Below, in pieces: positions 1,598 through 30,363 of a DNA stretch of 64,000 bases (the stretch's first letter is position 1; the number at the start of each line of letters is the position of its first letter). The stretch lies in contig JAPPLF010000003.1 in assembly GCA_028874215.1 (NCBI GenBank), positions 25,813-89,812 on the forward strand, given 5' to 3'. The position numbers and the translations under genes were made by a program. Source of the DNA: Acidobacteriota bacterium. GTDB lineage: Bacteria > Acidobacteriota > UBA6911 > RPQK01 > JAJDTT01. Below the pieces are notes generated by a model that was not told the origin of the DNA, searched no databases, and saw only the letters and a program-made list of their open reading frames with translations.

Positions 1598-2905
1598 CTA
1601 AGTCACCAACCGGGTCGACCAGTGATCGCGGTACTCCCGGGTCAACAGGGCGTTGGCCTCCGGGTCGTCCGTGATGGTCTCGGTGGCGGGATCGAATGAG
1701 AAGCTGCCCCGGGTCCGGGCCGCGATGTTCCCCAGGTGGCAGAGCGATGTGGACAGATGCCCCACCTCCGCGTCGCAATTGGGCGTTTCACGAGTCCGGA
1801 TACAGTCGATGAAGTTGACGTAGTGTTCCCGGCCGCGCCTGACTTCGGCCAGTTCCTGCCGAACCAACCGGTGCTTGGAATCGTAGACGCGGAAGCCGTA
1901 CGTGCGGTGTCCGTCGAAGTAGCCAGCGACCGCCTTGCCTTCGGTGCCGTAGACTTCCACGCCGTTCTGGCCATTGTTCATCTTGTAAGGGTTCCAGAGC
2001 CGCATCTCGTACTGGATGACCGTATCCTCGTAGTCGAAGACGACGGTCTGGGTGTCGGGCGTCTGCTGGTCGTCGTCGAAGTAGAGCTTGCGGCCGGCCC
2101 CGGTGACGTGTTTCGGCAGACCCGCCTTCATGACCCAACGCGCCACGTCGATCCAGTGGACACCGTCGTTTCCCAGGTCTCCACAGCCATAGTGCCAGTG
2201 CCAATTGACCGTCCCGCTGTAATGGTTCCGGTTGAAGGGGAGCACCGGGATGGGACCGTTCCAGAGATCGTAGTTGATGCCGGACGGGACCGGCTCGTCC
2301 TCCTTGTGGCCGATGTTGCGGCGCTTCTGGGTGTTCCAGACCTTGGCCATGAGCACCTTGCCGATCTTGCCCGAATGGACGTAATCGATGAAGCGGTGGG
2401 TGTTGGGCCGGCTCCTGGATTGGGTCCCCACCTGCACGACGCGATCGTATTTGCGCGCCGCCTCCACCATGAGGCGGCCCTCGCGGACGTTGTGGGAGAC
2501 CGGTTTTTCCACGTAGACGTCCTTGCCGGCTTCACAGCAGAGGATGGTTCCGGGAGAGTGCCAATGGATGGGGGTGGCGATGACCACGGCGTCCACCGAC
2601 TTGTCGTCCAGGACCCGCCGGATGTCCTCCTCCATCTTGGGACGTTTCCTCTGGGTCTCCTCCGCGATCTTGAAGGCAGGACCCACCACGTTCTGGTCCA
2701 CGTCGCAGATGTAGGCCAGATCCACGTCGGGCATCTCGCCGAAATACCGGGTCAGGACGGGACCGCGGCCCCGGACACCCATCATGGCCACGGTCACCTT
2801 GTCATTGGCCGAAACCCGCTTGCGGCCGCCCAAACCGGCTGCAGCGGCCGAACCGATCGCGGCTCCGCCGGCCAAACTCGCTCCGAGAAAATTTCGTCTG
2901 TTCAC
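1598..2905 (-). CDS. Tat-exported Gfo/Idh/MocA family oxidoreductase
   Basis: A 435-residue NAD(P)-dependent sugar oxidoreductase-like protein. The start is taken as GTG at 2905 because a near-perfect AGGAGGTG lies 5 nt upstream; upstream in-frame ATG codons have no comparable site. From this start the protein begins V-NRRNFLGASLAGGAA, a twin-arginine leader, then a Rossmann fold with VTVAMMGVRGRGP, ICDVDQNVV, the ATPIHWHSP segment and the family EKPVSHN motif. A C-terminal Gfo/Idh/MocA beta-sheet domain follows, with GDLGNDGVHWIDVARW. Exported members of this family oxidise or epimerise sugars in the periplasm with tightly bound nucleotide; the substrate here is unknown. It is transcribed away from tag (2977) and converges with the PQQ-like gene. 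Confidence 0.88.
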   Translation of the reverse strand: MNRRNFLGASLAGGAAIGSAAAAGLGGRKRVSANDKVTVAMMGVRGRGPVLTRYFGEMPDVDLAYICDVDQNVVGPAFKIAEETQRKRPKMEEDIRRVLDDKSVDAVVIATPIHWHSPGTILCCEAGKDVYVEKPVSHNVREGRLMVEAARKYDRVVQVGTQSRSRPNTHRFIDYVHSGKIGKVLMAKVWNTQKRRNIGHKEDEPVPSGINYDLWNGPIPVLPFNRNHYSGTVNWHWHYGCGDLGNDGVHWIDVARWVMKAGLPKHVTGAGRKLYFDDDQQTPDTQTVVFDYEDTVIQYEMRLWNPYKMNNGQNGVEVYGTEGKAVAGYFDGHRTYGFRVYDSKHRLVRQELAEVRRGREHYVNFIDCIRTRETPNCDAEVGHLSTSLCHLGNIAARTRGSFSFDPATETITDDPEANALLTREYRDHWSTRLVT

Positions 2906-4639: not shown

Positions 4640-4782
4640 ATCGCCGCTCCTACGCCACCGCCTCTTTAATGTTCCAGTTCCCGGGCCGGAAACTCAAGCC
4701 TGGGTTTCCAAAAGTGGCTTCGACCCGGGCGTTGTCAAACCTCGTCCCGGCCCGGGCGGAGGAGATTGGCCGGGCATCGTAG

Positions 4783-4788
4783 TAGACT
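4783..4788 (+). promoter_or_regulatory. Candidate -10 element TAGACT
   Basis: TAGACT preceded by GTAG, 44 nt before the ATG at 4833. The same GTAGTAGACT decamer occurs before the genes starting at 16747 and 52776. No convincing -35 was found. Confidence 0.4.
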
Positions 4789-4832
4789 GGACAGGGACAT
4801 CGCCGAACCGTTCGAGGGAGGAAAGACGGGCC

Positions 4833-6152
4833 ATGAAGGAGCAATCGAATCGACGGGCATTCCTGAAGCGCCTGGGGGTGGGAAGCCTGGCCGCGGCGGC
4901 GGGTCCGGCCATCATCCGGGCGAGATCTTCCCATTCCCGGCTCCGCCTGGCCGGCGTCGGCGTGGGCGGAAAGGGTTGGACCGACCTGGGGGAGTGTGCC
5001 CTGGGCCACGACGTGGTGGCCATCTGCGACGTCGACGAGCGGCGGCTGGAACGGGCCGCCCAGCGCTATCCCGGCGCCAGGAAATACACGGATTGGCGCA
5101 AGCTCCTGGAGCAGAAGGACATCGACGCCCTGACCATCTCCACCCCCGACCACATGCACGCACCCATCGCCTACCAGGCCATGTCCCTGGGCAAGCACGT
5201 GTACACGCAAAAGCCCCTGACCCACTCGGTCCACGAGGCGCGCGCCCTCACTCGATTGGCCAAGGAGAAGGGCGTCGTGACCCAGATGGGCATCCAGCAT
5301 CACTCCCTGGCCCCCTTGAGGACGGGGGTCCAAGTGGTCCGCGACGGGGTCATCGGAAAGGTTCGGGAAGCGCACGTCTGGACCAACCGTCCCGGGACCT
5401 ACTGGAAACAGGAAATACAACGTCCGTCGGGGAGCGACCCGGTGCCCGGCCATGTTCACTGGGACCTGTGGCTGGGCGTGGCGCCCGAAAGGCCGTATGT
5501 GGACGGAGACGTCTACCATCCCTTTCACTGGCGGGGCTGGTGGGATTTCGGCACCGGCGCTCTGGGGGACATGGGCTGCCACCTCATCGATCCCGCCATC
5601 AACGCCCTGGAGTTGGGGCCTCCGTCCTCCGTCCGGGCGGAGGGCACCGATCCTCTGCCTGAGAGCGCTCCCCGCTGGTCCATCGTCCACTACGAGTTTC
5701 CGGGAACCCGGTACACGACGCCGACCCTGCCCCTGACCTGGTACGAAGCGGGGATGCGGCCGCCTCGCCAGCTCTACGGCGCACCCGACGACTGGCCCGG
5801 CTGGGCCAACGGGAATCTCCTGATCGGCGAGAAGGGGAACCTGCTGATGGCCGGGGGCCAAACGCCGATCCTGTTTCCCATGGAACGTTTCGCCGACACC
5901 GTCTTCCCCACCCAGCCGGACGAGAGTCACTACACCCAGTGGGTCAACGCCATTCTGGGGAAGGACACGGCTTCCACCGACTTTTCGTACTCGGGACCCC
6001 TGACCGAAACGGTGCTGTTGGGGAACGTGGCCTTCCGAACCGGCAAGACGTTGAAATGGGACAGCGCCAATCTGACGGCAGCCGGAGTCCCCGAGGCGGA
6101 CCAGTACCTGCGCCGTCCCTACCGCAAGGGCTGGGAAACGGAGGGTCTCTGA
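4833..6152 (+). CDS. Tat-exported Gfo/Idh/MocA family oxidoreductase
   Basis: A 439-residue protein. The start is the ATG at 4833, supported by GGGAGGAAA just upstream, and it places a twin-arginine leader (NRRAFLKRLGVGSLAAAAG) at the N-terminus; the open frame reaches much further upstream but not as plausible protein. The Rossmann domain reads LRLAGVGVGGKGWTDLG and AICDVDERRLERA, followed by ISTPDHMHAPIA and a QKPLTHSVHEA variant of the EKP motif in which Glu is replaced by Gln. The C-terminal domain holds GALGDMGCHLIDPAINAL. This exported type is widespread next to sugar catabolic genes. It converges with the DinB gene. Confidence 0.87.
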   Translation: MKEQSNRRAFLKRLGVGSLAAAAGPAIIRARSSHSRLRLAGVGVGGKGWTDLGECALGHDVVAICDVDERRLERAAQRYPGARKYTDWRKLLEQKDIDALTISTPDHMHAPIAYQAMSLGKHVYTQKPLTHSVHEARALTRLAKEKGVVTQMGIQHHSLAPLRTGVQVVRDGVIGKVREAHVWTNRPGTYWKQEIQRPSGSDPVPGHVHWDLWLGVAPERPYVDGDVYHPFHWRGWWDFGTGALGDMGCHLIDPAINALELGPPSSVRAEGTDPLPESAPRWSIVHYEFPGTRYTTPTLPLTWYEAGMRPPRQLYGAPDDWPGWANGNLLIGEKGNLLMAGGQTPILFPMERFADTVFPTQPDESHYTQWVNAILGKDTASTDFSYSGPLTETVLLGNVAFRTGKTLKWDSANLTAAGVPEADQYLRRPYRKGWETEGL

Positions 6153-6165
6153 ACTCGGGTCCGAA

Positions 6166-6708
6166 TTACCGGACCGGAAACCCCTCGGCCTGCTTCAGCC
6201 GTTCGACCTGGTCGTAGTGGCGGTCGGTGTGGAACCGGAGGAATTCCAACCGCTGGTAGGCGTCCAGGGGCCCCGACAGGTAGTGCAGGTCCAGCGCCTG
6301 GGCCGGGTCCAGTCCCGACAGGACCTGGGGGATCTGCTCCAGGGTGGTCTGGCAGGCTTCGTAACGGGCGATCCAATAGGAGAGGGGTCCCTCCCCCACC
6401 GGGTCGGTTTCGACCATGGCCTTCTCCTTGGGCTTCCAGGTCTTGGCGATCACCTCTTCGATGGGGAGACCGCGGTGCACTGCTTCGCCCGCGTGGAGGG
6501 GGACGCCCCGGCGCAAGCCTTCGGCCGCCAGCCAGATTCGCTGGACCCCCCTTTGCTCCGACAGGACCAGGTGCTCGATGTGCGCCTGGACCGACCAGCC
6601 GCCCGGCCCCTTGAAGGCGGCCTGAGCAGCCGACAGTCCCCGGTTGGCATTGATGATCCGCCTCCGAGCGGCATCCGCCGCCGCAATTCGCTCAAGAATC
6701 GAACTCAT
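6166..6708 (-). CDS. DinB/DUF664-type four-helix metal-binding protein
   Basis: A 180-residue protein of the DinB superfamily. The metal-site histidines expected for the fold are visible: His43 and His46 in QAHIEHLVLSEQ, and His160 and His164 in FHTDRHYDQVERL. The GGWSVQAHIEHL block is the usual family signature. Characterised relatives are thiol-S-transferases or hydrolases, but most members are unassigned. The ATG overlaps the stop of the upstream deoxyhypusine-synthase-like gene by ATGA, so the two are translationally coupled and probably work together. Confidence 0.82.
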   Translation of the reverse strand: MSSILERIAAADAARRRIINANRGLSAAQAAFKGPGGWSVQAHIEHLVLSEQRGVQRIWLAAEGLRRGVPLHAGEAVHRGLPIEEVIAKTWKPKEKAMVETDPVGEGPLSYWIARYEACQTTLEQIPQVLSGLDPAQALDLHYLSGPLDAYQRLEFLRFHTDRHYDQVERLKQAEGFPVR

Positions 6709-7817
6709 GATTCACCTCGATTCGCTGGGGCGACGCCGGCGTCACCCAACTCCTCCAGAAGTCCCCTCATCAACAGCGGCCAGACCAGGGTCGCGTCGGC
6801 GTGGACCTCGGCGTAGCGTCCGCCCTCCTCGGGAGAGACGAATTTACCCCAGCTGACCCCCTCCGCATAGCTGCAGCCCGAGAGCCCGCCCCAATGATCC
6901 GGCTCCGGACAGATGCGGACGCCATAGCGGAAGCGGGGCGGCGGACGGCGGATTCCCAGGCGGTTCACGGCCACCTCGAAGTAGGGGCCCACCTGCTGCG
7001 CCCAGTTGCGGGGGACTCCTCCGCCGATGGTGAAGATCCCCAATCGCGGCGCGGCGGCGGCGAACCGGGCATATTCCTGCAGGTCCAGGAACGGATTGAA
7101 GGGAGGAACCGCCCGGAAGATCTCATCCGGTTCAGCCGCTTCCCGGCCCTCCCGTGTGGCCGGCATCTCCCTTTCCATGGCCCAGTTGGCCAGGTCCAGT
7201 CCGATTTCGCTGTCGGTAAAGGCGGGAATGAAGACCGGGACTCCACTGCGGAAGGCGCTGCCGAGAATCCCCGGACCCCGGTCATCCTCGCTCAGCCGCC
7301 GTCCCAGCGCCCGGCAGAGGCCGGCTGACGACCAGGTTCCGCCTTCCGGCTCCTCCCGGGTCAGGACCGAATGGAGGAGTTCCTCCACGTCGTCCAGGTT
7401 CCGCTCCATCTCCAGAGTGTCGTAGATCCGGTTGTAGCCCCGGCGGTAGAGATACTCGTCGGAATGGCGGCTCTCGCAGCGGTAGTGGACGAGTCCCAGC
7501 GACTCGGTGAGCCCGTGGGCGATGAGGGCGCCGGTGGCGACCACGGCATCCACCCAACCCCGGTCCAGCATCCGGCAGATGATCCGTCCCTGCTTGGCCA
7601 CGGTCATGGCCCCGGAAACGGTCAGGACCACGCGGCAACCCCGGTCGCGGATCATCTCCAGGAGGACCTGGAAAGCCTCTCCCAGGTTCCGCCCCCCGAA
7701 GGCGGTCCGGGACATGGCTCGCAACAGTTCGGGAACGGTGCCGATCTCTTCTATGGGAAGGCTCTCGAGGGGGACCAGGCCATCGGATCGCCCGTCGCTG
7801 CGACGCCTGTTTCTCAT
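6705..7817 (-). CDS. Deoxyhypusine synthase-like protein
   Basis: A 370-residue member of the deoxyhypusine synthase family, which transfers the aminobutyl group of spermidine to lysine or to another amine. The signature around the catalytic lysine is retained near residue 325 (YAEGVSWGKF). The NAD-binding region contains LTVSGAMTVAKQGRI and VDAVVATGALIAHGLTESLG. Bacteria lack eIF5A, so bacterial homologues are thought to make homospermidine or act on unknown acceptors. The start at 7817 is chosen because TAGACT lies 10 nt upstream and the long N-terminal extension of the frame is antisense to the neighbouring gene. It shares an ATGA overlap with the DinB gene. Confidence 0.85.
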   Translation of the reverse strand: MRNRRRSDGRSDGLVPLESLPIEEIGTVPELLRAMSRTAFGGRNLGEAFQVLLEMIRDRGCRVVLTVSGAMTVAKQGRIICRMLDRGWVDAVVATGALIAHGLTESLGLVHYRCESRHSDEYLYRRGYNRIYDTLEMERNLDDVEELLHSVLTREEPEGGTWSSAGLCRALGRRLSEDDRGPGILGSAFRSGVPVFIPAFTDSEIGLDLANWAMEREMPATREGREAAEPDEIFRAVPPFNPFLDLQEYARFAAAAPRLGIFTIGGGVPRNWAQQVGPYFEVAVNRLGIRRPPPRFRYGVRICPEPDHWGGLSGCSYAEGVSWGKFVSPEEGGRYAEVHADATLVWPLLMRGLLEELGDAGVAPANRGES

Positions 7818-7827
7818 GGTTTGAACA

Positions 7828-7833
7828 AGTCTA
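7828..7833 (-). promoter_or_regulatory. Candidate extended -10 TGCTAGACT
   Basis: On the minus strand TGC precedes TAGACT, matching an extended -10. Only 10 nt separate it from the ATG at 7817 and there is no Shine-Dalgarno, so a leaderless or nearly leaderless transcript is inferred. Confidence 0.5.
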
Positions 7834-7913
7834 GCAGGACCGAAAAACCGTAGGGGCAGCCCTTGTGGCCGGCATCCATTGCGCAAGAGGTTGCCACCGG
7901 AGGAAGGGAACCA

Positions 7914-7935: not shown

Positions 7936-8036
7936 TCCTGCTCTCCTGGAGACAACCGGCGGTGGACGCTGTACCATGAGGCCAGCGCGGGAGACGGCTC
8001 CCGCCTTTCCGTGGTTTCCAACCGGAGGTTGCTCTC

Positions 8037-9002
8037 ATGTCCTCTTTGAAGGCTCCGTTCCTGCCCCTGGTTCTGGCAACAGTGATCCTCACGCCCTCCC
8101 TGCCGGCGGCTCCCGGCAAGATCAAGAAGCCGCTGACCCCCCGGCAGGTCATGGAGCACCTGGAGGGACCCATCTTCTCCCTGGTGCTGCCCTTCGACGC
8201 GGAAGGGAACGTGGATCACGGCGCCATCCGCAAGATGATCTCCAACGCCATGAGATACGACGTCCGGATCTTCAACATGACGGGCGGGAACACCAAGTAC
8301 GACTGGATCTCCTACGACGAGGTCAAGGCCGTGACCCGGACCTTCGTGGAGGCGGTGGGCGATCACGGCATCAGCATCGTCTGCACCAACAATTTCTGGA
8401 ATTCCCGGTTGATCGACTACCTGCGGTACGCCGAGGGGTTGGGGGCCGACGCCGTCGAGGTGCTGGCGCCGAGGATGGCGGAGGAGGACATCGTCGAGTA
8501 CTTCCGGACCGCCGCCGCCAACACGCGCATGGCACTCTCGGTCAAGAACGTGGGCCTCAAGGACAAGACCTGGCGCAAGCTCCTGGAGATCGACTCCGTG
8601 GTGGCCATGAAGGAGCACGACATCCGGGAATACATCTTCCTGGAAGCCAAGTTCGCGGACCGGCTCCGCGTCTACAGCGGCGGCAGCATCTACCGCTTCC
8701 TGGCCGCCGCTCCCTATGGCGCCAAGACCTACTTCGACATCTACGCCATCATCGCCCCCTGGATCGCCAAGGAGTTCTGGGAGGCCTACCAGGCCGGGAA
8801 CCTGGAGAAATGCTACGAGATGTCGAAGAATTACGACGTGCCCATCATCGAAAACTTCAGCCTCCCCTTCTTCCACGGGGCGCTGGAGCACTTCGGGCTC
8901 GCGAAGCGGCACCTGCGGGCTCCAATGAAATCGTACACCGACGAGCAGATGAAGGAAGTGAAGGCCTTCTTCGAGTCCCTGGGCTTGCACCCCCGGGAAT
9001 AG
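8037..9002 (+). CDS. DapA/N-acetylneuraminate lyase family protein with export signal
   Basis: A 321-residue class I aldolase-type TIM barrel. The Schiff-base lysine is Lys192 in VVAMKEHD, matching the family K-E/D motif. The opening strand reads GPIFSLVLPFDAEGNVD. The usual tyrosine of the proton relay (Y-N-x-P) is replaced by ALSVKNVG, so ordinary dihydrodipicolinate synthase chemistry is unlikely. The first 25 residues (KAPFLPLVLATVILTPSLPAA) look like a cleavable signal peptide, which is rare in this cytoplasmic family and suggests a periplasmic aldolase or lyase. An internal start would remove the leader, but none with a good ribosome site was seen. It is single, surrounded by sugar genes; the substrate is unknown. 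Confidence 0.8.
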   Translation: MSSLKAPFLPLVLATVILTPSLPAAPGKIKKPLTPRQVMEHLEGPIFSLVLPFDAEGNVDHGAIRKMISNAMRYDVRIFNMTGGNTKYDWISYDEVKAVTRTFVEAVGDHGISIVCTNNFWNSRLIDYLRYAEGLGADAVEVLAPRMAEEDIVEYFRTAAANTRMALSVKNVGLKDKTWRKLLEIDSVVAMKEHDIREYIFLEAKFADRLRVYSGGSIYRFLAAAPYGAKTYFDIYAIIAPWIAKEFWEAYQAGNLEKCYEMSKNYDVPIIENFSLPFFHGALEHFGLAKRHLRAPMKSYTDEQMKEVKAFFESLGLHPRE

Positions 9003-9305: not shown

Positions 9306-9830
9306 ATGCTTCCCCGTTCTACTTTCCTGAAGGCTTCTTTGGTCTTCCTGGCGGCGGCTCTGCCGGGTTGCGGAGGCGGAAACCCCGCAACCGAGGCGGA
9401 GCGGGAGGCGCGGGAAGAAGCATTCCGGCAATCCATGTCGGGAGTCGTGCTGGAGGGATTCTTCACCGTCGGCGAAGGCTCGGAACTGCGGAAGGAAAGG
9501 TACGAAGTTGCCAAGGTCTCGAAGCTGGGCGGTGATATCTGGGTCTTTCAGGCCCGGATCCAGTATGGGAGCCGCGACGTCACGGTGCCGGTGCCGGTGC
9601 GGATGGAGTGGGCCGGGGACACGCCGGTCCTGAGCCTGACGGAGGTCGCCATCCCGGGCTTGGGCACCTTTACGGCGCGGGTCCTCTTCTACGACGATCA
9701 GTACGTGGGCGTCTGGCGCCACGGAGAGGTCGGCGGGCTGCACTTCGGGCAGATTGTTCCGGAATCGGCGGTTGGGAAACCGCCGTTCCAAGAATCGGCG
9801 GTTGGGACACCGCCGCTCCCGTCGGAATAG
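9306..9830 (+). CDS. Hypothetical lipoprotein, C-terminus made from hairpin repeats
   Basis: A 174-residue predicted lipoprotein: the leader ends in the lipobox LPGC (Cys22), followed by a polar Gly/Glu-rich linker and a beta-rich domain of about 110 residues with no recognised family. The last about 22 residues (ESAVGKPPFQESAVGTPPLP) are encoded by two tandem copies of the window's GGCGGTTTCCC hairpin, so the original stop has probably been displaced by repeat insertion. The next gene (UxuA-like) starts 9 nt downstream, suggesting co-transcription. Function unknown. Confidence 0.6.
   Translation: MLPRSTFLKASLVFLAAALPGCGGGNPATEAEREAREEAFRQSMSGVVLEGFFTVGEGSELRKERYEVAKVSKLGGDIWVFQARIQYGSRDVTVPVPVRMEWAGDTPVLSLTEVAIPGLGTFTARVLFYDDQYVGVWRHGEVGGLHFGQIVPESAVGKPPFQESAVGTPPLPSE
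9761..9818. repeat. Tandem hairpin repeats inside a coding 3' end
   Basis: Two copies, 30 bp apart: 9766-9785 pairs CGGCGGTT with AACCGCCG, and 9796-9815 is the same stem with one internal mismatch. Both are read in the opposite orientation to the 13700 and 24974 elements. Each is preceded by GAAT and the second is followed by CTCC. Confidence 0.7.
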
Positions 9831-9839
9831 GGTCACGCC

Positions 9840-10883
9840 ATGGCGAGACGAATTCGGGTGGCGGCCGGCAGCATCCGGGACCCCAGCGACGACATACTGA
9901 CCTTCGCGGCCCAACTGGGTTGCAGCGGCATCATCCTCAACACGCCCAATCTCACCGGGCGGACTCCTTTCGGTTCCAGTCCCATCGGGTCCACCTACTG
10001 GAGCAAGCCGGGAGACGAAGAGGCCCCCACCCACTGGGACTACCTGGAACTTCTGCAACTGCGGACCCGGATCGAGTCGTACGGCCTGCGGCTGGAGGGC
10101 ATCGAGAACACCCCCCTCCATTTCTACCAGCGGTGCATTCTGGGTCTTCCGGGACGGGACCGGGAGATCGAGAACTACCAGGAGACGATCCGCAACCTGG
10201 GCCGCGCGGGGATCCCCATACTCGGCTACCACTGGATGGCCAACAGCGTCTGGCGCACCTCCAAGAGCGAGCCGGCCCGGGGCGGCGCCCGGACCAGCGT
10301 CTACGACCACGAGCTGGGCCGAAGCGCTCCTTTGAGCTTCGACCGGGAATACTCCGACGCGGAACTCTGGGACAACTACGAGTACTTCATCCGGGCGGTC
10401 CTGCCCACCGCGCAGGAGGCGGGGGTCACCCTGGCGCTCCATCCCGACGACCCGCCCGTGGACTCCCTGGGAGGGGTGGCCCGGATCTTCAGGAACCTCA
10501 AGGGCTTCCGGCGCGCCATGGAGACGATCGCCCCCGAACCCAACCACAAGCTGGACTTCTGCATGGGGACCTGGGCGGAGATGGGTGTGGACGAGATGTT
10601 CGCGGGCCTGCGCTATTTCGGCGCGCGGGGCCGGATCGCATACGTCCACTTTCGAAACGTCCGGGGAGCCGTGCCCTGCATCACCGAGACCTTCATCGAC
10701 GAGGGGGACGTGGACGTGGTGGAGGTCATGAAACTGCTGGTGGAGATGGGGTTCGAAGGATTCATCATCGACGATCACGTCCCCGAGATGCCCGGCGACA
10801 CCCTCTGGTCGCACCGGGGGCGCGCCTACGCCACCGGCTACATCAAGGGGCTGCTCCGGGCCGTCGAATCGTTGACCGCCTGA
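9840..10883 (+). CDS. Mannonate dehydratase (UxuA)-like TIM-barrel protein
   Basis: A 347-residue protein resembling mannonate dehydratase, which converts D-mannonate to 2-keto-3-deoxygluconate in hexuronate catabolism. Family hallmarks are present: ALHPDDPP, DFCMGTWAEMG, YVHFRNVRG followed by ETFIDEGD, and a terminal DHVPEMPGD...HRGRAYATGYIKGLL block with the metal-binding His and Asp residues. The length is slightly short of E. coli UxuA (about 394) and the N-terminus is more like sugar-phosphate isomerases, so it may act on another sugar acid. It lies 9 nt behind the lipoprotein gene and converges with a Gfo/Idh/MocA gene ending 13 nt away. Confidence 0.8.
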   Translation: MARRIRVAAGSIRDPSDDILTFAAQLGCSGIILNTPNLTGRTPFGSSPIGSTYWSKPGDEEAPTHWDYLELLQLRTRIESYGLRLEGIENTPLHFYQRCILGLPGRDREIENYQETIRNLGRAGIPILGYHWMANSVWRTSKSEPARGGARTSVYDHELGRSAPLSFDREYSDAELWDNYEYFIRAVLPTAQEAGVTLALHPDDPPVDSLGGVARIFRNLKGFRRAMETIAPEPNHKLDFCMGTWAEMGVDEMFAGLRYFGARGRIAYVHFRNVRGAVPCITETFIDEGDVDVVEVMKLLVEMGFEGFIIDDHVPEMPGDTLWSHRGRAYATGYIKGLLRAVESLTA

Positions 10884-10896
10884 CCCTTTTTCGCGC

Positions 10897-11988
10897 TCAG
10901 CTCCCTACGGCCGCGACACGGCCGGTCCGGGCCGATTCGTAGATGGCTTCGATGATGGCCACCGCCTTTCGGGACTCGGATCCGTCCAGCATGAAGTCCT
11001 CGTCCCCCTCCAGCCAGTTGACGAAGCCGCGGATGTTCCCGGTGTGGAGGCTGTAGTCGATGGCCATGGGATCGGCGGCTCCCCCGCCGCTGCGGGTTTC
11101 CTGGGAAAAACGCCGGCGCACGCCGTCGTCCCCGGCCTGCTCCCGGCTGAAGGCCCAGGTGACGAGCTCGTCCTCCAGCACTTCCGCGGTCCCGCCCCTC
11201 CCCGCCAACTGAAGCCGCTTCAGCGAACCGGGAAACATGGAGGTGGCCCCCAGCAACTGGCCCAGTGCCCCGCCACGAAGACGCATGACGGCCACCGCCG
11301 TGTCCTCCACCTCGATCAGGTCCGGATCGTGACCCCGCTTGGCGGTGAAGGCGAAGATCTCTCGAACCGGATTGACGCCGGGCGGAAGATCCGGGATGGC
11401 GGCCGAGGCCAGCCACTGGGCCGCGTCGACGCCGTGAATGGACTGGTTCATCATGGCGCCGCCGCCGTCCAGTGCCAGCGTCCCCTGCCAGCGATCGGGC
11501 GCGTAGTAGGCGTCGTCACGCCACCAGGGCACATAGGCGTTGACCACCGCCAGATCGCCGAACCGGCCCTGGGAGGCGGCTCCGTGAACCTCCCGCAGCA
11601 CCGGGTTGAAGCGCTGGGGGAATATGCCTCCCAGACGGATCCCGCTCTCCCGGGCCACCCGGATCATCCGGTCCACGCGCGCGACGGTGATTTCCAGGGG
11701 CTTCTCGCAAAGGACATGGACGCCGCGCCGGGCGCACGCCTCCAGCGGCTCCAGGTGAAACCCGCTGGGTGTGGCGATGGAGACGAAGTCGGGCCGGGCC
11801 TGGTCCAGGAGCTCCTGGTAGTCCCGGTACCAGCGGCAGCCGAACCGTTGTGCGAAGGCCTTGCCCTTGGCCTCGGTCCGGCAGGAACCGGCCACGAGGT
11901 CCACGTGCTCCAGATCGCCCATGGCCATGGCGTGTATGTCGGCGATGGCTCCGACGCCGATGATCGCGGCCCGGTAGGTCTTGCCCAT
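10897..11988 (-). CDS. Cytoplasmic Gfo/Idh/MocA family oxidoreductase
   Basis: A 363-residue NAD(P)-dependent oxidoreductase without a signal peptide. The Rossmann motif RAAIIGVGAIADIHA opens the protein, followed by IATPSGFHLEPL and the canonical CEKPLEI motif whose lysine is catalytic in the family. The C-terminal domain shows GGGAMMNQSIHGVDAAQWL with the usual histidine. Relatives include inositol 2-dehydrogenases and uronate or imino-sugar reductases. It follows the SSS transporter gene (12017-13642) on the same strand 28 bp downstream, so a transporter-dehydrogenase operon is likely. Substrate unknown. Confidence 0.88.
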   Translation of the reverse strand: MGKTYRAAIIGVGAIADIHAMAMGDLEHVDLVAGSCRTEAKGKAFAQRFGCRWYRDYQELLDQARPDFVSIATPSGFHLEPLEACARRGVHVLCEKPLEITVARVDRMIRVARESGIRLGGIFPQRFNPVLREVHGAASQGRFGDLAVVNAYVPWWRDDAYYAPDRWQGTLALDGGGAMMNQSIHGVDAAQWLASAAIPDLPPGVNPVREIFAFTAKRGHDPDLIEVEDTAVAVMRLRGGALGQLLGATSMFPGSLKRLQLAGRGGTAEVLEDELVTWAFSREQAGDDGVRRRFSQETRSGGGAADPMAIDYSLHTGNIRGFVNWLEGDEDFMLDGSESRKAVAIIEAIYESARTGRVAAVGS

Positions 11989-12016: not shown

Positions 12017-13642
12017 CTATGGAGCCGGGGCGTTGTCGATCCAGGGATATCCCAGTATGAGTCCGGCCAATGCCAGGAGAGGAATCAGACAGACGGCCAT
12101 CTTCAGGAGGATTCGCTGCCGGGAGTCCTCCGGCTTCATGAACCTGCAGGCCACGAGGCCCGCGGTCAGGTTCGCCCCCAGTGCGGCCGGAGAGATCCAC
12201 TGGAAGCTGATGGCGGTGGTGTCCAAGCCGGTCCCCGCGGCGATCACTTCGTAGAAGCTTCCGGAGAATGCGACGAGGACGGCCGTGGTGACCCCGTAGA
12301 TGGTGCCCACGATCACTCCGGCGGCCCGGGCGAAAGGAACGAACATGGCGAAGAAGAAGAGGCCGAAGATGGGAGTCACCAGCAGGTTGGTGGTGCGCTG
12401 GGTCATGGCCGTGAAGTTTCCCGGAACCTGGCCGATGAAGGTGCTCCCGACCACGACGATGGCCCCCACGGTGAGGGCCAGCATCTGGGCCGACCGGACG
12501 TGCCCCTTCTCCGTCTTGGGCTTCAGTCCGAACCGGTCCAGGAAGTCGGTCATGATCACCGCGGTAATGGAGTTCACTCCCGAATCGATGCTGGACATGG
12601 CGGCGGCGAACATGGCCGAAACCACGAGGCCGGTGACTCCCGGCGGCAGGTGAAAGGCGACGAAGCGGGGGAAGATCCGATCTCCGTCCGTGGTCAGACT
12701 CAGACCGGCAAGCTCGTCGGGCCTCTGCTGGAAGTAGCCCAAGAGCGCGAATCCCACCAGGACCAGGGTGAAGGCCACAAGCGTGCCGGCTCCCATCTGC
12801 GTCAGGTAGGCCTTCTTGGCGGCGCGTGCGTCCCGGGTGGCCATGAATCGCTGGACCGACACCTGGTCGCCTCCGGCCGTGCAGATCTGCCAGAGGCTGG
12901 CGCTAAGAATGGTGCCCAGGACCGTCACCCGCATCCTGGGATCGAAACTGAACAGAGGTTGCGTATCCCAGGTGGGTTGCCAACTGGTGGGGAACCAGGT
13001 GAATCCTCCCAGTTCGTAGGTCACCAGCCCGATCACCAGCCAGGCCCCGCCGAACAGCAGGGTGAACTGGAGGAAGTCGGTGATGACCACCGCCCCCAGG
13101 CCTCCCAGAGAGGTGTAGATCACCGAAACGAAACCGGTGACCAGCACCACCAGCGGGATCCATTCGTCCCCCACGCCCAACATGGTCGTCATGGCCTTGG
13201 CCGCGATGTAGACCAGCAGGGACATCCAGACCAGCCGCATGAGGATGAACAGGACCGACCCCAGCAGACGGATCCCCAGGCCGAGCCGTTCCTCCAGCAA
13301 CTCGTAGGCGCTCGTGACCCGCTGCCGCATGTAGAGGTGCAGGAACAGGCCCGAGACGACCAGAAAAGCGATGGGATAGGAGCAGAGGTTGGCCACCGTG
13401 GCCACGGGCCCCTTGGCGATGGTCTCTCCCGGCATGGAGAGATAGGAGATGGTGCTCAGCAGCGTGGCGAAAAGGGAGATGCCCACCAGCAGCGGATTCA
13501 TGGCCCCGCTGCCCACGAAGTATTCGCTGGTGCTTCGCTGCCGGCGCGAGAAGTAGTAGCCCAGGCCGATGGTCGACGAGGCGTAAGTGACGACGATCAG
13601 CCAGTCGATGAGGGTCAGCCCGCTCTGTCCTGTGATGTCCAT
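12017..13642 (-). CDS. Sodium:solute symporter (SSS family)
   Basis: A 541-residue protein with about 13 hydrophobic segments, beginning DITGQSGLTLIDWLIVVTYA, the typical external N-terminus and first helix of SGLT-fold symporters. FVGSGAMNPLLVGISLFATL and YTSLGGLGAVVITDFLQF correspond to helices lining the sodium and substrate site. The ATG at 13642 gives the correct N-terminus; the upstream extension of the frame runs through the repeat elements at 13677-13864 and is not protein. It sits upstream of the cytoplasmic Gfo/Idh/MocA gene, so it probably imports that enzyme's sugar, polyol or sugar acid with Na+. Confidence 0.9.
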   Translation of the reverse strand: MDITGQSGLTLIDWLIVVTYASSTIGLGYYFSRRQRSTSEYFVGSGAMNPLLVGISLFATLLSTISYLSMPGETIAKGPVATVANLCSYPIAFLVVSGLFLHLYMRQRVTSAYELLEERLGLGIRLLGSVLFILMRLVWMSLLVYIAAKAMTTMLGVGDEWIPLVVLVTGFVSVIYTSLGGLGAVVITDFLQFTLLFGGAWLVIGLVTYELGGFTWFPTSWQPTWDTQPLFSFDPRMRVTVLGTILSASLWQICTAGGDQVSVQRFMATRDARAAKKAYLTQMGAGTLVAFTLVLVGFALLGYFQQRPDELAGLSLTTDGDRIFPRFVAFHLPPGVTGLVVSAMFAAAMSSIDSGVNSITAVIMTDFLDRFGLKPKTEKGHVRSAQMLALTVGAIVVVGSTFIGQVPGNFTAMTQRTTNLLVTPIFGLFFFAMFVPFARAAGVIVGTIYGVTTAVLVAFSGSFYEVIAAGTGLDTTAISFQWISPAALGANLTAGLVACRFMKPEDSRQRILLKMAVCLIPLLALAGLILGYPWIDNAPAP

Positions 13643-13676
13643 GGCGTTGCGGCCACGAACTCTACCATTTTGGCTC

Positions 13677-13864
13677 GGCGGCTTTCCAGCCGCCGCACCG
13701 GGGCGGCGGTTTCCCAACCGCCGATTCCCGAGTTGCAGGCGGACGCGTGCAAGACCGGGCGATTGGGAAATCACCCTTCCGCTCGGGGCGGCGGTTTCCT
13801 AACCGCCGATTCCTGAGTTGCCGGGGGACGCGTGCAAGACCGGGCGATTGGAAATCGTCCCTCC
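13677..13864. repeat. Cluster of hairpin elements with two tandem 80-bp units
   Basis: A lone hairpin (13677-13694, GGCGGC/GCCGCC, loop TTTCCA) is followed by two near-identical units at 13700-13780 and 13785-13864. Each unit has a left hairpin GGCGGTT/AACCGCC, a spacer with GGACGCGTGCAAGACC, and a right hairpin starting GGGCGATTGG and ending CCCTCC or CCCTTCC. The right hairpin resembles the left one inverted, so each unit is a head-to-head pair like a BIME. It lies between divergent transporter genes. Confidence 0.8.
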
Positions 13865-23258: not shown

Positions 23259-24926
23259 CTACTGAAACCGGAAGGAATAGAACTTGCCGTTGCGCAGGTG
23301 GAAACGCAATTGAACCGGCTGGCCGGCCAGGGCCGACAGATCGGACGATCCGGCCCAGGAGACCGGTTGGGCGGCGACGGTGCGGGTGACCGGATCCATC
23401 TCCTCCAGACCGAAACCCTCCAGCGGTTCTCCTTGAGAGTTCAGCACCTCCACCCTCAGGGAAGAGTGGTGGTCCACGCCGGCCGACCCTTTTTGCGAGT
23501 CCTCGAAGCTCACCAGCAGGCGGCTTCCTTCGAATATCAGCGGGCGGGTGGTCACCGTCCCCGGATTGGGACCGGCGTCCAGCGAGACGAAGCCGTCCAG
23601 GGGAAGGGTGGCCAGTCCCACAGCCGCCTCGGCGTTCTCTCCCTCCGCCAACAAATCCTCCACGCCGTGGCGCCAGTTGACGCCCAGGTAGAAGAACCAG
23701 ATCGTGCCGTCGTGCACGATGGGCTGCCGGACATAGACGCAGCCGTCGTCCCACGTGCCGTTGGCTCCAAGCGGAATGAAGGGGCCCCGGTCCGGGAGGC
23801 GCAGAAATTCGCGGCCGGCGCGGCTGTAGGCGAAATGGCTCTCCATGGTCAGGCTGTTGGTTCGGAACACCCAGGGAAACCCCAGGTAGATTCCTTCGTA
23901 GAGCAGAGCCGGCATGCCGTAGAACTGGAGGTCCGCCGGATCCATCGAATCGGGAATCAACGCCGGTTCGATGGGCGACCAGTGAACGAAGTCGTCGCTG
24001 GACGAGAAACCGATGGTCCGGATCCGGCGGTTTCCCGCGGCAGGCGCCAACTGGTCGAGCGTGTGGGAGGGCAGGCTGGCGGCTCGAACCTCGGTTGGAA
24101 TGGATTCGTAGGCTGCGACGGCCTCCTGGTAGTCCTTCCATCCGGGCCGCAGATAGGCCACGTACTTCGTCCGGGAAGGGTCCCAACCCAGGACGGTGTG
24201 AGTGTCGCCCGTCCCCATCATGACCGGGTTTCCCGGATACTCGTTCCAGGCGAGCCCGTCAGGCGAAAAGTAGAGGCAGATGCCGATCTTTCCGTTTGCC
24301 GCCCGGGCGTAACCCAGGGCCTTGTAGCGCCGGTCCGGATCCTGTTCCCTGTGGTCCCGGAACGCGTTGGGTGCGCGGCCCGAGTTGTAGAGCCCGCCTT
24401 CGGAGCGGACCGACCGGTCCGAAATGATGTTGTTGCGGGTCGAGCCCTCGAACTCCACCAGACCCAGCTCGGGTCTCTCCCAGCGAACCCCGTCCCGGGA
24501 GACGGCGTAACAGGACAGGTCCAGTTGCTCCTGGTAATTGCTGGCGCGAAGCAGGCTCTCGTATTCCTCCAGTGGTCCGGGAGGCCGCTCGGCCGTGATC
24601 AGACTGGGGACGTACCACATCTTGAAGAGGGCGTCCTGGGGATCGTAGATCACGGAGCTCACGGCGGCGAAGTTTCCTTCCCACTTGCGCTCCGGCCTCA
24701 ACACCGGTCCTCCGGGATGCTTGACCGGCCGGTTCAGGACCCGGGAGACGGACGACATGGTCTCCACGATGTGGTCGTCGATGAAGAGCTGCTTGACGGA
24801 GCCGATCCGGACCGGCTCCCGGTCCCGGGACGGATGCGAAGAGCATCCGGCCAATCCGGCCACGATGAGGACGGCAGCAGCCGCCAGACACCCATTCTCC
24901 AGCGAGCTTCTCCCGTTGCAGGTCAT
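23259..24926 (-). CDS. Lipoprotein, predicted five-bladed-propeller glycosidase-like
   Basis: A 555-residue lipoprotein (lipobox LAGC at about residue 28). After the leader comes IGSVKQLFIDDHIVETM, nearly the same opening as the protein at 48492-49985 (IGSQKQFFIDDYLIESM), so the two are paralogues. The repeated D-G-W/L-x-W and KMWYVPSLI patterns resemble GH32/43/62-type five-bladed propellers, where acidic residues of successive blades act on glycosides, but the catalytic residues were not assigned. A C-terminal beta domain of about 120 residues may bind carbohydrate (LRFHLRNGKFYSFRFQ). TAGACT ends 7 nt before the ATG, suggesting a leaderless mRNA. Confidence 0.7.
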   Translation of the reverse strand: MTCNGRSSLENGCLAAAAVLIVAGLAGCSSHPSRDREPVRIGSVKQLFIDDHIVETMSSVSRVLNRPVKHPGGPVLRPERKWEGNFAAVSSVIYDPQDALFKMWYVPSLITAERPPGPLEEYESLLRASNYQEQLDLSCYAVSRDGVRWERPELGLVEFEGSTRNNIISDRSVRSEGGLYNSGRAPNAFRDHREQDPDRRYKALGYARAANGKIGICLYFSPDGLAWNEYPGNPVMMGTGDTHTVLGWDPSRTKYVAYLRPGWKDYQEAVAAYESIPTEVRAASLPSHTLDQLAPAAGNRRIRTIGFSSSDDFVHWSPIEPALIPDSMDPADLQFYGMPALLYEGIYLGFPWVFRTNSLTMESHFAYSRAGREFLRLPDRGPFIPLGANGTWDDGCVYVRQPIVHDGTIWFFYLGVNWRHGVEDLLAEGENAEAAVGLATLPLDGFVSLDAGPNPGTVTTRPLIFEGSRLLVSFEDSQKGSAGVDHHSSLRVEVLNSQGEPLEGFGLEEMDPVTRTVAAQPVSWAGSSDLSALAGQPVQLRFHLRNGKFYSFRFQ

Positions 24927-24933
24927 GCGGCGC

Positions 24934-24939
24934 AGTCTA
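24934..24939 (-). promoter_or_regulatory. Candidate -10 element TAGACT
   Basis: Minus-strand TAGACT only 7 nt before the ATG at 24926, the spacing expected if transcription begins at the start codon. Confidence 0.5.
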
Positions 24940-24973
24940 CCGCACCCACGTGTCCGGAAGTAGATGCCAGGAT

Positions 24974-25052
24974 GGGGCCGGCGGTTTCCCAGCCGCCGAT
25001 TCTTATTACCAAAGCAAACGAGGGAAACCGGGCGATTGGAAATCATCCCTCC
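24974..25052. repeat. 80-bp paired-hairpin element
   Basis: Same plan as the units at 13700-13864: a left hairpin GGCGG/CCGCC around TTTCCCAG, a diverged spacer, then ACCGGGCGATTGGAAATC and a CCCTCC tail. Ends are conserved while the centre is not. It lies between divergent genes. Confidence 0.75.
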
Positions 25053-27132: not shown

Positions 27133-30100
27133 CTACCGATCCCTGATCTCTCGTCTCTCCTCCTCGGGGGGTCTCCAGCGGCGGGTGGCCAGCGGCTCGT
27201 AGATCTCATATCCCGGCCCGTAGCCGGCGCTCTCGGTTCCGATCACGTACTGGTAATCCAGTATGAACCGCATGAGATCGGCCATCTCCTGGGGGGTGAC
27301 GTTCTCTTCGAGACCCTCCGGCATGAGCGACTTGCCGGTGGCCCGCATCTCCAGGATGTCCTTGCGCAACACGGTGTTCCGGACGTCTTCCCCCTCCATC
27401 AAGGTGATGCTCTCCGAGTTCTGGTCGGTGATGATGCCCGTGAAGAGGCGCCGCTGCCGGTCGGTCACCACGTACTGGAGATACTGGGGCTCCACGAACC
27501 GGTTGGGATCGAGAATATTGGTTAGAAGCGGCTCAGGGTCCTTGTAGGAGCCCATGATCAGGTTGGGCCCCACCAGGTGCTCCGTGGAAGAGAGACGGTG
27601 GCACTGGACGCACTCGCGCCGGTAGACCGCTTCTCCGTGAGTCCGGTCCCCCTCGAGGGTCAACGCGACCTGGTAGTCGGCCAGGGCCTGCTGCCGCGTG
27701 CCGTCCGTCCGAGAGGCGAAAAGGGTCTTGGCCTGATCCCGGATCGCCTCGTCGTCATGGTTCATGAGGAGTTCCCGGCGGCTGGAGTTGAGCTGGCCGG
27801 CAGCAACCCGTTCCTCCTGAACGGCCTGAAGCAGTGCACGCGTCCAGGGCCTCCGGGAGAGGAGGCCGGTCAGGACCCGGTTCCGAACGTCGGGCGTCTG
27901 AGCCGTCCAATCCTGGAGCAGGATGCCGGCGATTTCGGGGGCGTCGTGACGCTCCAGGGCCTCGATCCCGGCGAGCTGCACCGCCTGGGTCTGGCTGGAC
28001 TCCACAAGTTTGGCGAGAGAGTCCCGCACCTGCGGGAAGGCGCCGTGGGCCAGGAGTCGAATGGCCTCCAGACGCTCCTCCTCGGGGACCGACTCGTCTC
28101 CAGCCATTTCCGCAACCCTGCTCATGAGGTCCCGTATCATCCGGGCGGCCGGGCGCGAAAGACTTCGGACCCGGGCGAGAGACTGGTTGGAGATGGCCAG
28201 GCCCTCCGCCAGGCCGGTGACCACCACCTGCTGCATCCGCACGGTATCGGACATGGCGGCGTGGGTGGCCGCCGCCCCGGCGAGCCGCCGGATCTCCGAG
28301 GCGTTGTTGCGGGCCCCCACGGTGCGGGCCAGCGGCTCCAACCAGGCTCCGGCCTCCGGCTTGGCAGTAAAACCCTCCGTCTCCAACAGCCGGACGAAGA
28401 GGCGGTCGGCGATTTCACTGCTGGAACTCAAAACGGCATTTCGAGTCCAGCGGTCGCCCGAGTCCCGCTCGGCGATCCGAACCAGTCCGGAAATGGGCCG
28501 GCGGTTCCCGACCTCACCCAAGGCCAAGGCAACCCGAAAACGCACCTTGGGATGGTCGTCCTTGGCCAGCGCCAGCACCTTTCGGAACAGAGACCGGGAG
28601 CGACCGAAACGGGACTCGGACAGTTGCACGGCGTGTACGCGGACTCCCGGTGACGGGTCGGCCAGGGCCTGGACCAGATGCGCGTCCTTCAACGCTCCCA
28701 GTCCGTTCAGGGACCAGAGGGCGTGCATTCGGGCCAGCGGCTTCTCGCTTTCGTTCAGAAGCCGGACCAGATGGGGAACCGCCGACCGGTCCTGGCGTTC
28801 GTAGATGAGCCGGTGGGCCGTTTCCCGCCACCAGCCTCCCGGGTGCTCCAGGTGGCCGACCAGTTCCCGCGTGGCGGCCTCCCCCAGACGCGGCCGCGGC
28901 GGGACCTGGAACCCGTCGGGCTCCAGCCGGTAGATGCGGCCATGTTCCTGACCCCGGGTGAAATCCAGATGCTTGACCACGCGGGCCGGGACGTGGGCCG
29001 CCTCGATCAACTCCCGGTACATGTCCAGAATGTAGAGCGTTCCGTCGGGCGCATTGACCGAGTTCACGGGGCGAAACCAGTTGTCGGTGGAACGGACCAT
29101 CTCCACGTTCTCCGGCTCGCCCCTCACCGATCTGAAGCTCACCCCGTCCTCCTCCAGGACTCTCCGGTGCAGCAGGTTGGCGGTGTTGGCGCCGATGAAG
29201 AGGCTTCCCCGGTAATCTTCGGGATAGGCGTGACCCCGGTAGATCTGCACCCCGGCGCCGGCGGTCTGGTAGTCGTGTCCCACGCCGGCGCTGCGATTGC
29301 TCCGCCCCGCGAAGACACGGCGGGCTTCCCGGATGGTCCGCCAGAGCTCGACGGGACTGATCTTGTAGACCCGGGTCGATCCGCGCACCAGTGGATTCAC
29401 CTCCAGGGAGCCGTGTCCCTCCCAGTGGAAGCCGTGCAGGTCGAAGAAGAGATAGGGGTTGCGCTGCAGGTAGCCGCCGGGCATGACCACGTGCCGGCCC
29501 GACGAACCCGCGGTGCAGACGTAGCGGTTGTACCAGTCGTCGAAGCTGTGTCCGAACTGGAATGTCTGGGTGGTCAGCTCCAGTTCACGGGTCACGGGGT
29601 GGAACCGGAAATCCCGGTCGTAGACGGAGATGGGCTCGGCCTCCGGCTGGTCCCCCGGCCGGATGTAGCCGCCGTCGCCGCCCGTCGAGGCGTAGATCTT
29701 GTGGTCCACGCCCCAGATCAGGTTGTTCACCATCTGTTGTTCGTTGGTGACGCCGAATCCGGTGAAGACGACCTCCCGGACGTCGGCCTTCCCGTCTCCG
29801 TCGGTGTCCTTCATGTAGTAGACGTGGGGAGGAGCGGAGACGTAGACCCCCTGTTTCCAGACGGCGACGCCGGTGGGCCAGATCAACCCGTCGGCAAAGA
29901 CGTGGCTGACCTCGAAGCGTCCGTCCCCGTCCTGGTCCTCCAGCAGCCGGACCTGTCCCCGGGGCGCCTCGCCATCACCCGGCTGGTAGGGATAGTGTCT
30001 CAACTCGGCGACGTACATGCGCCCGTTCTCGTCGAACGTGGCCGCCACCGGCTCGTTCACCATGGGCTCGTGCGCCACCAGCTCCAACCGGAACCCGTCT

Positions 30101-30312
30101 GCCGTCTCGAAGGTCTCGAGGGCTTCGGCCGGCGTCTTGGGAGGAACCTTCTTCAGGTACTCGCTGAGGGCGGCATCGTCCCGGGAGATGTCCACGATCC
30201 GCTTGAAACGTTCCTCGGGCGTCTCATCCGGTTCGGGACCGCAGGACACCGGCAACGCCAGGCACAAGACAGGCAAGACCCGGCGGAACAGGGACCCATT
30301 CTTTCTCTTCAT
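27133..30312 (-). CDS. Membrane-bound dehydrogenase-like protein with HEAT repeats and cytochrome c domain
   Basis: A roughly 1059-residue exported protein, probably a lipoprotein (ALPVSC). Order: an N-terminal NHL/PQQ-like propeller domain from about 50 to 470 (ALETFETADGFRLELVAHEP, FDENGRMYVAELRHYP, LLEDQDGDGRF), HEAT-type helical repeats from about 520 to 860, and a C-terminal class I cytochrome c with the haem motif CVQCH near residue 900. This is the architecture annotated as putative membrane-bound dehydrogenase with PVC-type haem domain, common in Planctomycetota, Verrucomicrobiota and Acidobacteriota. It probably oxidises a sugar and passes electrons to the haem. ATGs at 30312, 30321 and 30324 are all possible; 30312 is preferred for spacing to AAGGA. 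Confidence 0.85.
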   Translation of the reverse strand: MKRKNGSLFRRVLPVLCLALPVSCGPEPDETPEERFKRIVDISRDDAALSEYLKKVPPKTPAEALETFETADGFRLELVAHEPMVNEPVAATFDENGRMYVAELRHYPYQPGDGEAPRGQVRLLEDQDGDGRFEVSHVFADGLIWPTGVAVWKQGVYVSAPPHVYYMKDTDGDGKADVREVVFTGFGVTNEQQMVNNLIWGVDHKIYASTGGDGGYIRPGDQPEAEPISVYDRDFRFHPVTRELELTTQTFQFGHSFDDWYNRYVCTAGSSGRHVVMPGGYLQRNPYLFFDLHGFHWEGHGSLEVNPLVRGSTRVYKISPVELWRTIREARRVFAGRSNRSAGVGHDYQTAGAGVQIYRGHAYPEDYRGSLFIGANTANLLHRRVLEEDGVSFRSVRGEPENVEMVRSTDNWFRPVNSVNAPDGTLYILDMYRELIEAAHVPARVVKHLDFTRGQEHGRIYRLEPDGFQVPPRPRLGEAATRELVGHLEHPGGWWRETAHRLIYERQDRSAVPHLVRLLNESEKPLARMHALWSLNGLGALKDAHLVQALADPSPGVRVHAVQLSESRFGRSRSLFRKVLALAKDDHPKVRFRVALALGEVGNRRPISGLVRIAERDSGDRWTRNAVLSSSSEIADRLFVRLLETEGFTAKPEAGAWLEPLARTVGARNNASEIRRLAGAAATHAAMSDTVRMQQVVVTGLAEGLAISNQSLARVRSLSRPAARMIRDLMSRVAEMAGDESVPEEERLEAIRLLAHGAFPQVRDSLAKLVESSQTQAVQLAGIEALERHDAPEIAGILLQDWTAQTPDVRNRVLTGLLSRRPWTRALLQAVQEERVAAGQLNSSRRELLMNHDDEAIRDQAKTLFASRTDGTRQQALADYQVALTLEGDRTHGEAVYRRECVQCHRLSSTEHLVGPNLIMGSYKDPEPLLTNILDPNRFVEPQYLQYVVTDRQRRLFTGIITDQNSESITLMEGEDVRNTVLRKDILEMRATGKSLMPEGLEENVTPQEMADLMRFILDYQYVIGTESAGYGPGYEIYEPLATRRWRPPEEERREIRDR

Positions 30313-30363
30313 GTGCGCCATCATCCTTGATGGGGGTCCGAATTGAAACCCCGGCAGGGCGGT

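Follow-up and report, generated by a model that had tools for sequence, protein, structure and literature searches.

Locus, family and predicted fold

The window, a stretch of 64,000 nucleotides of DNA from an uncultured Acidobacteriota genome, carries a gene for an exported-looking protein of the DHDPS/NAL superfamily (dehydratases and aldolases of sugar acids), which lies among the following genes.

1601-2905, minus strand: Gfo/Idh/MocA oxidoreductase with a Tat-type leader, NRRNFLGASLAGG; GTG start after AGGAGG
4833-6152, plus strand: Gfo/Idh/MocA oxidoreductase with a Tat-type leader, MKEQSNRRAFLKRLGVGSLAAAAG
6708-7853, minus strand: deoxyhypusine synthase family protein (PF01916, 1.3e-69), bacterial, adjoining the exported-looking gene
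8037..9002, plus strand: exported-looking DHDPS/NAL-superfamily gene, an ORF of 321 aa
9306..9830, plus strand: predicted lipoprotein with an LPGC lipobox (by eye) and no Pfam match, syntenic in four genus genomes
9840..10883, plus strand: UxuA-like mannonate dehydratase (PF03786, 7.7e-56; NCBIfam below cut-off) with a cytoplasmic-looking N-terminus
10897..11988, minus strand: Gfo/Idh/MocA oxidoreductase, leaderless, assigned by Pfam, syntenic
12017..13774 (ORF as listed), minus strand: sodium:solute symporter family transporter (PF00474, 2.3e-36), syntenic

The gene order from the deoxyhypusine synthase-like gene to the symporter is kept in the three other genomes of the genus, in each of which (3/3) the UxuA-like gene, two genes downstream of the exported-looking gene, is syntenic and 95–98% identical. 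The gap between the exported-looking gene and the lipoprotein gene varies from about 300 to 850 nt across the genus genomes, so the two need not form an operon. As the UxuA-like protein and the adjacent Gfo/Idh/MocA protein (10897..11988) are leaderless, a pathway linking them to the exported-looking protein would span two compartments. The leaders of the two upstream Gfo/Idh/MocA proteins include NRRNFLG and SNRRAFLKR, and both proteins are predicted to be exported. A long ORF at 4650-5930, opposite the gene at 4833-6152, is probably spurious. The peptide RRFPNRRFL or one like it occurs near gene ends at ~9770-9830, 13700-13800 and 24900-25050, suggesting a dispersed DNA repeat, and the minus strand at 27133-30324 encodes an exported-looking protein of 1063 aa that matches DUF7133, HEAT repeats and, weakly, cytochrome c.

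The 321-aa protein scores 63.2 bits with the DHDPS profile PF00701, above the cut-off of 22.1. Its top PDB match by sequence is 3hij (E 2e-12), and the best solved relatives are DapA (4-hydroxy-tetrahydrodipicolinate synthase) proteins. It falls under every listed NCBIfam cut-off. The highest of these scores, though far under the cut-offs, belong to models of the KdgD (5-keto-4-deoxyglucarate dehydratase) type, the top one being PRK03620 with 61 of 278 bits. The KdgD equivalog TIGR03249 gives 50.5 bits against 373.95, the DapA equivalog TIGR00674 gives 40.8 against 206.15, and the N-acetylneuraminate lyase models NF003164 and TIGR00683 give 27.4 against 281 and 14.4 against 382, respectively. 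An ordinary DapA, KdgD or NanA is ruled out by these missed cut-offs. The AlphaFold2 model is a predicted (beta/alpha)8 barrel with a pLDDT of 88.8, falling below 50 for residues 1-23. When this model was compared with known structures by Foldseek, the top match was a DHDPS (E 2.7e-16) and the second was the KdgD structure 4ur7 (22% identity); the matches comprise DHDPS, KdgD and NAL structures, with TM values to the query of ~0.75-0.79 among the 50 matches listed. The protein appears, from its sequence, to be a new exported-looking variant within a known enzyme superfamily.

The leader and the exported-looking branch

Two features define the 5' end of the gene.

8024..8028, plus strand: Shine-Dalgarno sequence GGAGG, 8 nt 5' of the ATG, identical in 4/4 genus orthologues
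8037..8108, plus strand: leader MSSLKAPFLPLVLATVILTPSLPAA, residues 1-24, recognized by hydropathy, pN/pS and pLDDT

The gene is found in all four genus genomes, the other three proteins being 93-97% identical to that of the window from residue 1 onward. The first ATG is the same in each, the orthologous proteins align gap-free from M1, and in the stretch of the alignment shown frame-breaking indels occur 5' of the ATG and none 3' of it. This comparison of the four sequences shows the first ATG to be the true start codon. The six pairwise comparisons give a pN/pS of 0.41 in residues 2-26 and of 0.10 both in residues 27-40 and in the barrel, and variable leader sites within the hydrophobic run mostly exchange A/V, A/T, I/L and alike. 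Since the leader value of 0.41 contrasts with 0.10 in the barrel and the changes are conservative, the leader is translated and its hydrophobicity is kept loosely, which would be expected for a signal peptide.

The stretch ahead of the barrel is some 38-43 residues long (43 aa if counted up to the 'GP' of strand 1), and the maximum 15-residue mean hydropathy of the leader is 1.98-2.24 across the four genus orthologues. An n-region and a hydrophobic core, as in Sec signals, are present and conserved. The candidate signal-peptidase site is presumably A24|A25, placed by eye from the -3/-1 rule; this site, LPA|A, is imperfect and is followed by positive charge. P26 lies close to it and three lysines lie downstream, and the net charge in the four orthologues is +2 to +4 for residues 25-36, compared with +2 to +3 for residues 1-5 with the N-terminus. 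Positive charge past the cleavage site is poor for Sec and could favour a membrane anchor.

Relatives were sought by a contig scan of Acidobacteriota genomes with exact peptide patterns from one protein, a method that can miss distant members, and five loci were found: the three genus orthologues and two copies in Chloracidobacterium sp. UBA6041. The latter, the only more distant members found, are 41-45% identical to the window-genus proteins. Both start with a Tat-type leader, NRRVFLKYAAATAAAG, in which the twin-arginine motif NRRVFLK precedes a hydrophobic run, and TatC is encoded in this genome, as it is in 5/5 genomes carrying the exported-looking protein. In a midpoint-rooted tree the proteins of the window genus group with those of UBA6041 as a single clade (support 100/98), to which leaderless paralogues are sister (100/99). 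Two homologues with the motifs GGTGE and IYSRDW, which we take to be KdgD-like, lie next outside this nine-row clade (L079 and L080; 97/91). At E 1e-30 the clade with its leaderless paralogues is found in 4/396 genomes and 1/210 genera of the phylum, and at 1e-20 the class of UBA6041 (162 genomes) gives three matches, of which UBA6041 alone is strong. With Sec-like and Tat leaders in one clade, it is the place of work that would be kept, not the leader itself.

The leader distinguishes this branch from the homologues around it. The alignment holds 57 rows and covers 51 of 60 listed homologue stretches, near-identical ones and L027 having been omitted by hand. Among the 51 rows from other branches none has a clear hydrophobic leader, L079 being ambiguous, and nearly all have 2-15 aa before the barrel. 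Start codons of homologues were picked mechanically; for one UBA6041 copy (L045) the TTG at 18 chosen in this way was wrong, and the ATG at 9917 was read by eye. Mechanical choice also gives long extensions in L053, L016, L057, L073 and L027, with low hydropathy (maximum 0.85). Counted per genome, 1/12 DHDPS-family genes in G000 and 2/8 in UBA6041 (G396) have a leader, the starts of L103-L106, L035, L057 and L073 being judged by eye. The KdgD-like L079 (genome G518) has an in-frame hydrophobic run 5' of its ATG that may be another leader or chance; it is preceded by GTG, TTG or CTG starts only, none with an evident Shine-Dalgarno sequence. A tblastn search of plasmids gave 114 records, all below 60% identity and the best among the matches listed at ~25%, and showed no leader-bearing relative. 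Searches of an open-access library gave no listing that describes an exported DHDPS-superfamily member; in a Streptomyces secretome study, a dihydrodipicolinate synthase is listed among other housekeeping-type enzymes (PMC4098958).

An unlikely alternative to export is that the leader serves as an uncleaved anchor and holds the enzyme on the cytoplasmic side of the inner membrane. In three of the four orthologues the positive charge is indeed greater after than before the hydrophobic run, and the leaderless UxuA-like and Gfo/Idh/MocA neighbours suggest cytoplasmic chemistry. Against this, the run is short and interrupted by prolines, with LPAA at its end, and the Tat motif of the UBA6041 copies implies export of a folded protein, so that the clade would need two fates.

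The rewritten active site

Three active-site elements were located by alignment, the first two also in the AlphaFold2 model.

8610..8612, plus strand: K192, the Schiff-base lysine, last residue of strand 188-192 (strand 6)
8544..8546, plus strand: K170, in the column of E. coli DapA Tyr133, last residue of strand 166-170 (strand 5)
8280..8297, plus strand: T82-K87 (TGGNTK), in place of the GTTGE pyruvate/carboxylate motif

The K192 column holds Lys in 56/57 aligned rows, and K192 is invariant in all six members of the clade. The K170 column is far more variable (Tyr 42, Gln 6, Lys 4, Thr 3, His 2), so the loss of the tyrosine is real yet not unique to the clade, in which the four genus proteins have Lys and the two UBA6041 copies His; the three leaderless paralogues have Thr. 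The GTTGE equivalent is GGNTK in the window protein and AGNSQ in the UBA6041 copies, with T82, G84 and N85 invariant across the six clade members. The pocket is thus changed, as judged from the alignment, beyond the tyrosine, and because the pyruvate-binding motif is rewritten too, ordinary pyruvate aldolase activity is not assured. We know of no catalytic solution that uses Lys or His at the tyrosine position, or N85.

Compared with DapA, the protein shares the lysine and the fold (6xgs, TM 0.76/0.83) and lacks equivalents of Tyr133, Tyr107 and GTTGE; the genome has separate DapA-like genes. The leaderless paralogues of the same genus (for example G000:C87 and L040; 27-28% identity) have likewise lost both elements (Tyr to Thr, GTTGE to AGDSH), but have ~15 aa before the barrel and no hydrophobic leader. 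KdgD shares the fold, the Schiff-base lysine, the best-scoring NCBIfam type and the motifs of the nearest outside branch, and the Gly at the first T of GTTGE recurs in what we take to be the KdgD motif, GGTGE; the window clade differs from it in the change of Tyr to Lys/His, of the second T to Asn and of Glu to Lys/Gln, and in the leader. A missing tyrosine is not remarkable by itself, being seen in 15/57 homologues and in KdaD. The latter, a dehydratase of the superfamily, has, as its description gives it, a catalytic Glu where Tyr is usual (PMC13398020), so a protein that lacks the Tyr need be neither inactive nor foreign to the superfamily. The clade (Lys x4, His x2) does not have this Glu, a comparison made with the description of KdaD.

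With both the tyrosine and GTTGE gone, and exported binding functions being common, the barrel could instead be a pseudoenzyme that captures or senses keto-acids or sugar acids outside the cytoplasm. We consider this distinctly unlikely, as the Schiff-base lysine is retained throughout the clade and in nearly all homologues, the barrel is under strong constraint and the active KdaD shows the tyrosine to be replaceable.

The earlier note on this DNA had described a DapA-family protein with a signal-like N-terminus, the Schiff-base lysine kept and the usual tyrosine missing, beside exported sugar oxidoreductases. The family, the lysine and the tyrosine loss are borne out; the leader is real, to judge from the conserved GGAGG and start and from the Tat leader of UBA6041; and the oxidoreductases are present, as predictions, in the two genes with twin-arginine leaders. 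The note had also named a downstream start in orthologues as the finding that would count against it; this was looked at, and 4/4 keep the first ATG with GGAGG. The rewriting of GTTGE escaped it.

Proposed role and the kelch genes

The best explanation, which we hold with middling confidence, is that the protein is an extracytoplasmic Schiff-base lyase or dehydratase that belongs to a lineage related to KdgD and has as its substrate a 2-keto-3-deoxy sugar acid or a related keto-acid. The protein would be exported by Sec in the window genus and by Tat in the UBA6041 relatives, the leader would then be removed, and the mature protein would adopt the DHDPS-type (beta/alpha)8 fold once in the periplasm. 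There the substrate would be bound through its 2-keto group as an imine of K192, proton transfer would fall to the residue that replaces Tyr where strand 5 ends (K170 in the window protein, His in the UBA6041 copies), and dehydration or C-C cleavage would follow before uptake of the product. Export, the imine, the part given to K170 and the substrate class are inferred, and we judge dehydration, as by KdgD or KdaD, somewhat likelier than aldol cleavage. The class of 2-keto-3-deoxy sugar acids is our guess from the lineage and the neighbours, namely the KdgD-type motifs in the nearest branch and the UxuA-like gene. The earlier note had pointed to 3-keto sugars; nothing here links the family to 3-keto glycosides, and this substrate was dropped as unsupported, the context pointing to 2-keto-3-deoxy sugar acids. 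To our knowledge the DHDPS superfamily is regarded as cytoplasmic, as KdaD is. An exported and conserved branch whose active site has been rewritten would, if true, mean imine-based keto-acid chemistry in the periplasm, and the protein, small and expressible, would offer a test system for replacements of the tyrosine and the GTTGE motif.

Downstream of each UBA6041 copy comes an exported-looking kelch gene, which passes the Pfam model for NanM, PF24996. In the copy at L045 there follow a BNR-repeat gene, symporters, an SDR gene, a leaderless DapA relative, an AstE/AspA-type gene and an amidohydrolase. A kelch gene 42-45% identical to those of UBA6041 is present in 4/4 genomes of the window genus, and hence in 5/5 genomes with the exported-looking protein; in the window genus it is unlinked to the exported-looking gene, lying in G000 on a different contig. 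In three further genomes from the class of UBA6041, which do not have the exported-looking protein, a kelch gene (~47% identical) lies in clusters that include a leaderless DapA relative. Because two lineages have both genes and kelch also occurs alone, the link is suggestive only. If true, it would place an anomerase and an aldolase-family enzyme in one compartment, unlike the E. coli system, in which NanM is periplasmic and NanA cytoplasmic. A wider proposal, rather speculative and on the unlikely side, is that in some Acidobacteriota the Schiff-base cleavage or dehydration of keto-acids has been relocated outside the cytoplasm, with Sec or Tat export, a Lys or His base, an open-chain substrate from the exported kelch anomerase and processing of the sugar acid before uptake.

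The same genes could suggest a periplasmic N-acetylneuraminate-type lyase that acts with the kelch anomerase on sialic acid-like sugars. The kelch genes after both UBA6041 copies, the BNR protein and symporter at L045 and the co-occurrence in all five genomes favour it, as does the finding that, in vitro, NanM provides the open-chain form of the substrate to the aldolase (PMC8141875). It is nevertheless improbable: the NanA models score 14-27 bits against cut-offs of 281-382, Tyr and GTTGE are gone, the kelch gene is unlinked in the window genus, and in three genomes its partner within a comparable cluster is a DapA relative that has no leader. Very improbable is an ordinary cytoplasmic DHDPS-family enzyme whose leader is an annotation artefact and whose true start is M39, an in-frame ATG kept in the four genus orthologues: M39 has no good Shine-Dalgarno sequence as against the invariant GGAGG of the first ATG, the frame is intact and selected from M1, and M39 is not conserved in the UBA6041 copies.

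The two UBA6041 clusters, L045 and L046, lie on two contigs and are similar, each having the exported-looking DapA-family gene, the kelch gene and a leaderless DapA relative; in L046 the gene ahead of the exported-looking copy encodes an outer membrane protein of the TonB type. Within the class of UBA6041, L100, L101 and L102 share with L045 a recurring catabolic cluster of kelch, symporter, AstE/AspA-type, leaderless DapA-related and SDR genes, to which L100 and L102 add, by eye, glycerate kinase-like and Gfo/Idh-type genes.
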